Source: Lysobacterales bacterium
GTDB lineage: Bacteria; Pseudomonadota; Gammaproteobacteria; Xanthomonadales; SZUA-36
Assembly (NCBI GenBank): GCA_013002505.1
Contig: JABDJL010000092.1
Span: 1 to 34,334, forward strand
Direction: 5' to 3'
Length of the DNA stretch: 34,334 nt
Of the stretch, positions 17,912 through 21,812 are shown piece by piece. Each line of letters begins with the position of its first letter. Positions within the stretch are counted from its first letter, which is position 1. Made by a program: the position numbers and the translations under genes. Under the pieces are notes generated by a model. It worked only from the letters and a program-made list of their open reading frames with translations. It did not search any database and was not told the DNA's origin.

Positions 17912-18877
17912 TCAGGCAGCTGCCTGCAAAAGTTTTCTTAGCTGTTGTTTCAATTCCTGCTTGGCGGGCTTCGCCTGGCGGTAGACCTCTTGCGCCCTGA
18001 AGAATTCCAGCGACTTGATGTCCACGATTTCCGGTGCGATGAAGATATCGGGCTGCACTCGACGCAGCTTCTCGCCTACGATCGCCTGTTGCATGATGGT
18101 GACCGAATTGAACAGGGTTTCAAAATAGCCGGGTATCGAATTGTCCGGCCTGGTGCGCGAGCCGGTTACGTCCACCGCGATGATCAGGTCACAATCGTCC
18201 GTCAACAAATCGAACGGAACCGGGTTCACCGTGCCACCGTCAACCAGCACCTTGTTGTTGTGCGAGACCGGGCGGAACACGCCGGGAATCGCCATGCTGG
18301 CCTGCACGGCGGGCAGCAACTCGCCACTGTCAATGGCGACTTGTTCACGTGACCACAGGTCGGCGGCGACGATGGTCAGCGGGATATCGAGTTGCTCGAA
18401 ATGGTTGCCATCGACGGCCTTGTAAATGCGATCGACCAGGCGTTCGCTGGCCAGCAGCCCGCCGCTGCCCAGTTCCACCTCGAGCAGGTCTGTCCAGCCG
18501 ACCGCATCGTCCGACAACAGGCTTTCGATCGGGCCATCAGATTCGCTGACAAACAGGTCATCAATCAGCTTGCGAATGTTCGCGGTGGACATACCGCCTG
18601 AGTACAGCGCGCCGATCACGGCGCCAATGCTGGACCCGGCAATCCGGTGCGGTCTCAGGCCTTCTTCCTCGAGAGCCTCGAGAATCAGCACATGGGCCAG
18701 GCCGTTGGCGCCGCCTGAGCCGAGCGCCAAACCGATGCGCGGTGCCGCGCTGCCGGAATTGTCAGGGCTTCGGGCCAGCACAGAGTCGGGCGCTACAGCC
18801 GTCACAGTAGCTGCGGAAATACCAGCCACGAACTGGCGGCGGGATAATGAAGTGTGAGGCATGCTTGATTTCACCAT
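17912..18877 (-). CDS. Tat-exported patatin-like phospholipase (RssA-like)
   Basis: A 321-residue patatin-fold serine hydrolase. The N-terminus has a twin-arginine signal, SRRQFVAG (12-19), followed by a hydrophobic stretch and VLA-R, predicting export of a folded enzyme. The catalytic dyad is S83 in GSSIGA and the Asp of LVDGGTVNP. The oxyanion loop reads GSGGANGLAH (53-62): the usual Arg of G-G-x-R-G is Asn. The C-terminal tail is basic and coiled (KQELKQQLRKLLQ). It is most like RssA-type NTE-domain lipases, but a Tat signal is unusual for that group. ATG 18877 is used; ATG 18862 is an alternative that also keeps the signal. Confidence 0.87.
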   Translation of the reverse strand: MVKSSMPHTSLSRRQFVAGISAATVTAVAPDSVLARSPDNSGSAAPRIGLALGSGGANGLAHVLILEALEEEGLRPHRIAGSSIGAVIGALYSGGMSTANIRKLIDDLFVSESDGPIESLLSDDAVGWTDLLEVELGSGGLLASERLVDRIYKAVDGNHFEQLDIPLTIVAADLWSREQVAIDSGELLPAVQASMAIPGVFRPVSHNNKVLVDGGTVNPVPFDLLTDDCDLIIAVDVTGSRTRPDNSIPGYFETLFNSVTIMQQAIVGEKLRRVQPDIFIAPEIVDIKSLEFFRAQEVYRQAKPAKQELKQQLRKLLQAAA

Positions 18878-18913
18878 GAAGGGATGGAACAGAATCGCAA
18901 TAGGGTAGCAAAA

Positions 18914-18932
18914 TGGCGCGCCCGGCAGGATT
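18914..18932 (-). repeat. 19-bp copy of the 3' end of tRNA-Arg(CCT)
   Basis: TGGCGCGCCCGGCAGGATT (plus-strand reading) is identical to 19112-19130, the CCA end, acceptor 3' strand and part of the T arm of the tRNA gene 198 bases away. The copy lies downstream of the tRNA on its own strand. The 150-180 bases between hold the tRNA terminator and no gene. Confidence 0.75.
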
Positions 18933-19084
18933 TACTCGCGACATCCATGTCGCTCGCCTTCGCACAGCTCAGGTCGCAGCGCTTCGCTTGCGCGTCCAAA
19001 ACGGCTGTCCTGCCGTTTTGTCGAACCCCGGGCGAATCTTCGATTCACCAGTTCGCCTCCTGCTACGAGCACCCCAAACAAAAA

Positions 19085-19106
19085 AACCGCCAAAAAGGCG
19101 GTTTTC
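19085..19106 (-). terminator. Rho-independent terminator of tRNA-Arg
   Basis: AACCGCC (19085-19091) and GGCGGTT (19097-19103) form a 7-bp stem with a five-base loop. On the minus strand the stem is followed by a run of T (19084-19078), five bases after the tRNA 3' end. The other strand also has TTTTC, so it may act in both directions. Confidence 0.85.
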
Positions 19107-19111
19107 TTGTT

Positions 19112-19188
19112 TGGCGCGCCCGGCAGGATTCGAACCTGCGGCCCCCAGATTAGGAATCTGGTGCTCTATCCGACTGAGCTACGGGCGC
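19112..19188 (-). tRNA. tRNA-Arg (anticodon CCT)
   Basis: A 77-base cloverleaf. The acceptor stem is GCGCCCG/CGGGCGC with discriminator G and encoded CCA. The D arm is TAGCTCAGTCGGATAGAGCA, the anticodon stem CCAGA/TCTGG carries loop TTCCTAA (anticodon CCT, codon AGG), and the T arm is GCAGGTTCGAATCCTGC. Plus-strand frames across it produce the well-known false protein containing ARPAGFEPAAPRLGIW. A terminator follows directly, and a 19-bp copy of its 3' end lies farther downstream. Confidence 0.97.
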
Positions 19189-19259
19189 GTTGAAGTTCCG
19201 CATTGTACTGGCGACATGGCGATTTTGAAATTCAGATTCCTGAATCTTGCGCTTTCATC

Positions 19260-19889
19260 TCATGACTGCGCGGCAGCCAGGCACTCCCGGGCGCGCAGTT
19301 CAATGGCGTCCCAGTCTGAGCGCACCATAAATTCCGGCGCGAACAAGGGCGCAACAAAACCCACCGCATATGCACCCGCGCGAATCCATTCACCGGCATT
19401 GTGCTGGTCCGCGCCGTTGGTTGGAACAATCTTCAGGAAGGGCAAAGGTCCGAGGATCGCCTGCACGTAAGACGGCCCGCTGGCCGGGGCCGGGAACAGC
19501 TTGCAAAAGGTCGCGCCAAAACGATGCGCCTGGAGCATTTCGGTGGCCGTGTGGGTGCCCGGAAAGCTGGCCACGTTTAAATCTTTGGCAGCGCGAATGA
19601 CGGGTTCATCGACCACCGGTGAAACCAGGAATTGCGCACCATTTTCAACAGCCTTGTGTGCCTCTTCGGTGGTTAGTACCGTGCCGGCACCAACCGTGAC
19701 ATCACCGCGCGAGGCAAAGTCCCGGATCAACTCGAACACGCCTGGAACAGTGAGAGTGAATTCAATGAGTTTGAAGCCACCGCGTATGGCTGCCTCCATG
19801 GCGAGCGCGGCCTTTTGCTGATCGTCGGTGCGCAGGATCGCGGTGGCTTTCTCGGCGCCCAGTTGTTCAATGATGTGCTTAATGCCCAT
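19260..19889 (-). CDS. KDPG/KHG aldolase family protein (Eda-like)
   Basis: A 209-residue class I aldolase that cleaves 2-keto-3-deoxy-6-phosphogluconate or 4-hydroxy-2-oxoglutarate to pyruvate plus an aldehyde. The Schiff-base Lys is K130 (TFCKLFPA) and the general base is E43 (LIEFTLT), with GAGTVLTTEEA and FPGTHTATE as family blocks. The phosphate-loop motif PTGG is PTNG here, and the Arg of E. coli Eda (R49, in EVTLR) is Thr47. These changes suggest a substrate other than, or besides, KDPG. No edd or zwf gene is near; the gene is divergent (64 bases) from aconitase X, a 3-hydroxyproline-type dehydratase, which favours a 4-hydroxy-2-oxoglutarate or related keto-acid substrate. Confidence 0.85.
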   Translation of the reverse strand: MGIKHIIEQLGAEKATAILRTDDQQKAALAMEAAIRGGFKLIEFTLTVPGVFELIRDFASRGDVTVGAGTVLTTEEAHKAVENGAQFLVSPVVDEPVIRAAKDLNVASFPGTHTATEMLQAHRFGATFCKLFPAPASGPSYVQAILGPLPFLKIVPTNGADQHNAGEWIRAGAYAVGFVAPLFAPEFMVRSDWDAIELRARECLAAAQS

Positions 19890-21700: not shown

Positions 21701-21812
21701 GGTGGCTCCCGTTTGTCACCTCGCGGCGACTCATTGTGAACCCCGTCAGGCCCGGAAGGGAGCAGCGGCAGCAGTGAAATCGGGTGCCGGGGAACGGCGG
21801 GCGGGGGCCGCC
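21701..21812 (+). ncRNA. ffs: 4.5S RNA, signal recognition particle RNA
   Basis: The SRP domain IV core CAGGCCCGGAAGGGAGCAG is at 21747-21765, with the flanking GTGAACCCCGT and CGGCAGCAGTG. The ends pair as a long helix: the first 17 bases (GGTGGCTCCCGTTTGTC) pair with the last 17, many pairs being G-U, which fixes the mature boundaries to about 112 bases. The RNA binds Ffh and targets ribosomes making membrane proteins to FtsY. Its place just before dnaX is the usual one in pseudomonads and relatives. Confidence 0.93.

Follow-up and report, generated by a model that had tools for sequence, protein, structure and literature searches.

Downstream of the tRNA-Arg(CCT) gene in the window (the whole stretch of DNA analysed, 34,334 nucleotides) lies a tRNA-linked repeat (TLR) of the same family as the tyrT and rrB units of E. 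coli, a placement that is well supported. The fuller reading, in which an RNA released from this TLR by read-through carries tRNA-like ends and titrates CsrA, was given a probability of roughly 0.6, and the CsrA part of it is predicted from conserved hairpins.

Layout of the unit behind tRNA-Arg(CCT)

The following features were delimited, all of them read on the minus strand.

19112..19188, minus strand: tRNA-Arg(CCT), host gene of the repeat (ARAGORN; Rfam RF00005, 73.9 bits)
19112..19130, minus strand: upstream copy of the duplicated segment, i.e. the last 19 nt of the tRNA, AATCCTGCCGGGCGCGCCA (exact direct repeat D1)
19076..19111, minus strand: terminator-like hairpin at the tRNA/repeat junction (inverted repeat I1; fold)
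19058..19075, minus strand: A', GGGGTGCTCGTAGCAGGA, which forms the 5' strand of the closing stem and is complementary both to the tRNA 3' end and to the 19-nt copy downstream (fold; own-tRNA complementarity test on 65 units)
19031..19057, minus strand: variable hairpin between A' and the core (fold)
18928..19026, minus strand: conserved core (model R1, 95.4 bits, the sequence being itself among the 20 of R1)
18997..19020, minus strand: core hairpin H1, with GGA in its loop, CAAAACGGC-AGGACA-GCCGTTTTG (alignment of cores; covariation; fold)
18938..18953, minus strand: core hairpin H4, GCGACATGGATGTCGC (alignment of cores; covariation)
18942-18949, minus strand: CATGGATG in H4, which fits the Rsm/CsrA motif CANGGANG (motif as given in PMC6849547)
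18914..18932, minus strand: downstream copy of the last 19 nt of the tRNA, exact and ending in CCA, which forms the 3' strand of the closing stem (direct repeat; fold)
18914..19075, minus strand: predicted 162-nt TLR RNA, from A' to CCA (fold, z -4.89)

The exact 19-base duplication of the tRNA-Arg(CCT) 3' end described in the earlier note is real: the tRNA was detected by ARAGORN, and the direct-repeat scan found the 19-mer TGGCGCGCCCGGCAGGATT in identical form at 19112-19130 and 18914-18932, with a spacing of 198. Read on the tRNA strand, it runs AATCC...CCA and corresponds to the last 19 nt of the tRNA (about positions 58-76 in our own numbering), with 19/19 identity between copy and tRNA 3' end; simple arithmetic (about 300 positions x 4^-19) gives a chance expectation of about 1e-9 for such an exact match. 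The copy lies, as had also been claimed, on the same strand as the tRNA and downstream of it, past the terminator-like hairpin at 19076-19111; the whole feature reads on the minus strand. In the predicted fold, the stem of this hairpin is prolonged by bases of A' and of the tRNA 3' end; the scan for terminator-like structures listed it on the plus strand only.

The 143 nt between hairpin and copy hold no gene-like feature, and the statement that no gene lies between the two copies was borne out, the roughly 180 nt that separate them being free of gene-like ORFs. Two mechanical ORFs (18884-19153 and 18913-19470, both on the plus strand) cover the interval, run antisense through the tRNA and were taken as chance. 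The 162 nt that run from the hairpin through the copy form a markedly stable fold (z -4.89, none of 200 shuffles being equally stable), and in the minimum-energy fold most of A', the 18 nt that follow the hairpin, pairs with the 19-nt copy and so closes the whole unit. The neighbouring genes encode a patatin-like phospholipase downstream on the tRNA strand (17912-18877, gene start at 18877) and a KDPG/KHG aldolase upstream (19260-19889). Between 18700 and 19400, the sole promoter-like site is found at 19229-19202 on the minus strand, just upstream of the tRNA. Elsewhere in the window, a bacterial small SRP RNA was detected at 21710-21806 on the plus strand (Rfam RF00169, 69.5 bits).

The core family and its kinship with E. 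coli TLRs

With a 208-bp query, matches were obtained in 19 of 61 genomes (the own genome and relatives). Scanning of the matched loci without any model showed that the 3' end of the host tRNA itself, a tRNA-Arg, Gln, Glu or Pro gene, is copied, usually over 18-20 nt, 167-198 bp downstream, with tandem units at some loci; several tRNA-Ser loci hold the core together with shorter end copies. Three candidates were set aside: a 155-bp copy (L012), whose spacer is a run of N and in which a longer tRNA stretch is copied, and copies of the tRNA-Arg(TCT) 3' end of 16-23 nt, located 177-189 bp downstream (L026 and L034), whose spacers lack the core. The spacer of L026 also holds pieces of tRNA body, so that a degenerate tRNA duplicate is likely there.

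A covariance model (R1) was built from 20 aligned cores, 2 of them from the genome of the window and none from E. coli. The recurrence of the unit at other tRNAs, a check suggested in the earlier note, was found in the own genome: R1 gives 8 matches there at E<=0.01, every one of them behind a tRNA, and the 6 loci concerned are Arg(CCT), Glu(TTC), Ser(GCT), Arg(CCG) with two units, Pro(TGG) with two adjacent matches, and Pro(CGG), the Arg(CCT) and Glu(TTC) units being also part of the training set. In larger samples, R1 matches were found in 128 of 274 genomes of the same class and in 85 of 299 genomes spread over the phylum, 63 of these 85 lying outside the class. In these surveys at most 14-15 candidates were scored per genome and tRNA-linked and dispersed copies were pooled; the figures are counts of the core and not of TLRs alone, because R1 also matches dispersed copies. 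Among the matches listed, 139 R1 matches fell in 100 loci and 83 had a tRNA upstream on the same strand (16 kinds by anticodon); some of the remaining 56 lie behind tRNAs or tmRNA-like ends missed by ARAGORN, and many are dispersed. One core follows a tmRNA detected by ARAGORN (L215) and two others follow tmRNA-like 3' ends recognised by eye (L081, L142). The hosts of the core thus extend beyond tRNA and 5S genes, to tmRNA or tmRNA-like 3' ends.

The reading of the segment as a tyrT-type repeat gained support from E. coli K-12, where R1, built without E. coli sequences, recovered rrB, located behind 5S between T1 and T2 of rrnB (48.1 bits, E 3.5e-12), and four units of tyrT/tyrV (26.0-30.4 bits, E 5e-6 to 3.5e-7), and gave matches in argVYZQ (26.6 bits, 15.1 bits and, at E 0.1, 9.5 bits); argX-proM gave no match at E<=1. 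As a check on identity, the core model therefore did not miss the E. coli TLRs. Conversely, the Rfam RtT model (RF00391) matched units of relatives below its cut-off of 45 (L074 at 40.5 bits, L102 at 36.9, also L179 and L238); it gives four matches at K-12 tyrT and none to the window unit, either at E<=1 or at gathering. Given these R1 and RtT cross-matches, the window unit belongs to the TLRs as understood by Rudd 1999, a paper cited in PMC8144298 together with Egan and Landy 1978 and Bosl and Kersten 1991/1994.

No Rfam family reached its threshold for the core, whether in a set of 17 loci where the copies are dispersed or tRNA-inserted or in a set of 14 that almost all carry TLRs. Below threshold, overlaps with cores were given by RtT in the four loci named above, by RsmY (L010) and by the Aggregatibacter sRNA AaHKsRNA22 (RF02902; L070 903-1007, L072 105-205 and L077 917-1012, 26.6-35.8 bits for a cut-off of 39.8), and AaHKsRNA22 may in turn be related to the core. 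In the open-access literature searched, no description of TLRs as a family outside Enterobacterales was found; expression of an RtT sRNA is mentioned for Thioalkalivibrio (PMC8092127).

The likeness to the tyrT repeats (rtT/RttR, RF00391) extends to organisation. Both repeat 18-19 nt from the 3' end of the tRNA upstream, and both have a comparable spacing (178 nt in K-12 tyrT, 167-198 in the relatives, 198 in the window), tandem units at some loci, a segment complementary to the tRNA and an R1-matched core. The tyrT units differ in that their H4 loop lacks GGA, and K-12 tyrT, examined by eye, has no strong hairpin terminator directly after the tRNA, unlike the window. RrA, RrB and RrF, the TLRs between T1 and T2 of rrnA, rrnB and rrnD, resemble the window unit in their position behind a terminator, in a core with two GGA hairpins and in an end that copies the upstream RNA gene; they differ from it in being linked to 5S rRNA instead of a tRNA, and in the second terminator that follows them, none having been seen by the scan right after the window unit. 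RrB is described as sitting between two terminators, as binding CsrA in vitro through GGA motifs and as also binding Hfq, with modest effects only of rrA/B/F deletion or overexpression (PMC8144298). In K-12, the serV-argVYZQ tRNA genes, which hold R1-matched TLR cores, have csrA as their close upstream neighbour (L334, 2817600-2819500).

Direct repeats that abut a tRNA 3' end are a typical form of att scar, and the earlier note had kept open the remnant of a small excised integrative element, with attL and attR at the tRNA 3' end and its cargo lost. The position of the repeat fits such an origin. It is now very improbable and largely refuted, the interval containing no integrase, cargo or other gene-like ORF over its approximately 180 nt, with a similar spacing in the related loci examined; moreover, one conserved, RNA-like core stands at many tRNAs with different ends, the copies follow the host tRNA, tandem units occur, and E. 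coli has homologues.

GGA hairpins, covariation and CsrA

Of the 20 aligned cores, 15 have CANGGANG and the other 5 CAGGANG as their H4 loop; GGA is present in the H1 loop of 19. CANGGANG is the Rsm-binding motif as stated in PMC6849547 (citing Dubey et al. 2005 and Schubert et al. 2007), and the window unit, with CATGGATG in H4 and AGGACA in H1, has both the GGA in its loops and the CANGGANG context. The paired positions covary (0.624 against 0.166 in shuffles), with two-sided changes in 20 of 21 pairs in alignment A2, which was fitted to the model, and in 13 of 21 pairs in a MAFFT alignment of the same cores.

R1 was trained on sequences with GGA loops, which biases its matches; a scan of named genomes with the H1 pattern only, meant to lessen this bias, gave at least 116 stretches, and the named matches, among those listed, are nearly all from Gammaproteobacteria. 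Idiomarina ramblicola and Rheinheimera lutimaris are examples of cultured relatives in which a tRNA precedes the core. Among the matches listed, 90 of 122 distinct elements have, 30-100 nt further on, a stem with a CANGGANG or CAGGANG loop, against 0/122 on the reverse strand and 0.25/122 in shuffles.

The genome of the window encodes CsrA (one PF02599 match, E 1.4e-24). Across genomes, R1 matches were found in 114 of 235 CsrA-positive and 14 of 39 CsrA-negative genomes (Fisher p = 0.17), so that the co-occurrence of CsrA with R1 matches is weak. GGA loops are kept in genomes where CsrA was not detected, several of which are fragmented (G072, G254, G152, G128 and most matches of G182), and in one of two matches each in G135 and G245; they are lost in G318 and G315, which also lack a detected CsrA. 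In G318, GGA in H4 is kept in none of 7 distinct matches, 5 of which are not beside a tRNA and may represent another repeat; the one other genome of its family that was examined has CsrA and no R1 matches. A TLR need not bind CsrA, because GGA is absent from the H4 loop of the K-12 tyrT units. Taken together, a CsrA role is likely for many TLRs, though not for all, and is predicted for the window unit.

GGA motifs in hairpin loops are also found in CsrB/CsrC, RsmY/RsmZ, McaS and GadY. CsrA-titrating sRNAs of this kind have dedicated promoters; the window unit is unlike them, its sole promoter-like site being upstream of the tRNA. The core of one relative (L010) matched RsmY weakly and below threshold, at 23.9 bits (cut-off 57, E 0.066). 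The two GGA hairpins of the window unit resemble the two-site design of McaS and GadY, as described in PMC8144298, and contrast with the approximately 18 and 9 motifs given there for CsrB and CsrC.

Spread of the core, host-fitted ends and proposed function

At the tRNA-Arg(CCT) gene itself the unit is patchy, being carried by 2 of 18 loci (the own locus included, among best matches in relatives), and R1 agreed, with 2 matches on the 19 loci given to it. The earlier note had named absence of the segment at orthologous loci, together with a lack of other tRNA-linked copies, as evidence against its reading: absence is indeed common, but other tRNA-linked copies, far from lacking, are numerous. 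Within a genome, cores that follow different tRNAs resemble each other more closely (0.813, 16 pairs) than do cores that follow the same tRNA in different genomes (0.756, 82 pairs; p 0.0035; 0/1000 with permuted genome labels; 45 units from 34 genomes). Cores have therefore spread or been homogenised within genomes, their ends staying fitted to the host tRNA.

The core also occurs away from tRNAs: among the H1-pattern matches listed, 98 of 125 have no ARAGORN tRNA or tmRNA within 500 nt upstream. Long ORFs enclose 37 of the 98 (against about 77% expected at random), and 44 are otherwise intergenic (about 18% expected). Dispersed cores are in tandem at four loci (L189, L191, L230, L264). Other cores lie within tRNA-like copies, in the T loop (L077, L118, L126, L127, L148) or in the anticodon loop (L145, three copies), with Rfam tRNA matches close to the inserted cores in L077, L118, L145 and L148, as if the core were able to insert into tRNA loops. 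A role of dispersed cores as ribosome-binding or start-codon elements was considered and found no support, 34 of 86 with an ATG near their end opening an ORF of at least 60 codons, compared with 35% of all ATGs (40 loci). By eye, sense cores in L158, L164 and L165 lie inside or at the end of a recombinase-like reading frame and appear to be read through in frame. A second family of dispersed palindromic repeats with GCGACATGGATGTCGC was seen in the own genome at about position 1501 of L003, L004 and L005 (contigs C191, C165 and C33), with CTACAGGGATGTA-like hairpins in L005 and one hairpin identical to H4 of the window TLR; no tRNA was found in these three loci.

These observations bear on a selfish or neutral origin, in which a mobile or gene-converted palindromic core spreads among intergenic positions and the 3' ends of tRNAs, with the 19-nt copy as a by-product of insertion or amplification and no benefit for the cell. 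The dispersed and sometimes tandem cores, those inside tRNA-like copies, the greater similarity within genomes and the patchiness at tRNA-Arg(CCT) all speak for it. We nevertheless consider it rather unlikely, since the strong two-sided covariation with conserved loop letters points to selection on a folded molecule, A' fits its own tRNA, and no transposase or target duplication was identified in a non-systematic look. Spread and function of the core are compatible, and the two are not mutually exclusive.

The ends of the units are tRNA-specific. Among the 83 tRNA-linked matches, 44 have the 3' end of their own tRNA at 17/19 nt or better, against 0/83 for the end of another tRNA; at 15/19 or better the figures are 51/83 and 1/83, and the remaining 32 have end matches below 15/19. 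As a further identity check, the 3' copies thus did not fail to follow the host tRNA. The stretch before the core was examined in 65 first units with 32 distinct tRNA ends: A' pairs better with the end of the tRNA it follows than with ends assigned by permutation (21.2 against 17.6, sd 0.37, maximum 18.6 in 200 permutations), the own end ranking individually in the top 5% for only 29 of the 65 units. A' and the copy would accordingly form a helix resembling a tRNA acceptor/T stem with a CCA end.

Such a helix could also serve tRNA 3' maturation or termination as a back-up tRNA end, the core merely folding the spacer. This processing or decoy role agrees with the fact that the tRNA-specific parts are precisely the duplicated end and its complement, with the RNase E recognition proposed by Stenum et al. 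for the rrB copy (PMC8144298), and with the persistence of TLRs lacking GGA in H4 behind tRNA-Ser in G318 (L294, L303) and G135 (L301), and also at E. coli tyrT. It was judged improbable, as it leaves unexplained both the conservation of the GGA loops in most copies and the dispersed copies without a tRNA.

In the preferred, CsrA-titration reading, some transcripts of tRNA-Arg(CCT) would read through the terminator into the unit, where pairing of A' with the 19-nt copy would mimic the acceptor/T stem with its CCA end. Enzymes of tRNA 3' processing, drawn by this tRNA-like helix, would trim the RNA, and the freed molecule of about 160 nt would present its two GGA hairpins to CsrA/RsmA; by titrating CsrA, it would tie CsrA activity to tRNA synthesis. 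Expression of the TLR may be low, because the preceding hairpin looks like a strong terminator. More tentatively, TLRs, the RNA of the rrnB T1-T2 spacer and a large class of dispersed palindromic repeats could be one family of spreading RNA modules with CsrA/RsmA hairpins, present in Gammaproteobacteria and at least one other class, which behind a tRNA or rRNA gene would gain the 3' end of the host gene and become a processed CsrA sponge, repeatedly wiring stable-RNA synthesis to Csr.

The window unit adds a member to the TLRs, a family described by Stenum et al. 2021 as having no known function (PMC8144298). The range of the core, in 128 of the 274 genomes sampled in the class and 85 of the 299 sampled in the phylum, may be set beside the published tracing of rrB homologues within Enterobacterales (31 species, 12 genera; PMC8144298). 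What is of interest here, and can be tested, is the broader claim that TLRs are CsrA sponges derived from a spreading RNA module: the keeping of GGA while the stems change raises the concrete question of whether CsrA sponges are released from tRNA operons. In that case, CsrA activity would be coupled to stable-RNA output, and the rrnB T1-T2 spacer, which is widely used on plasmids (PMC8144298), would carry such a module.
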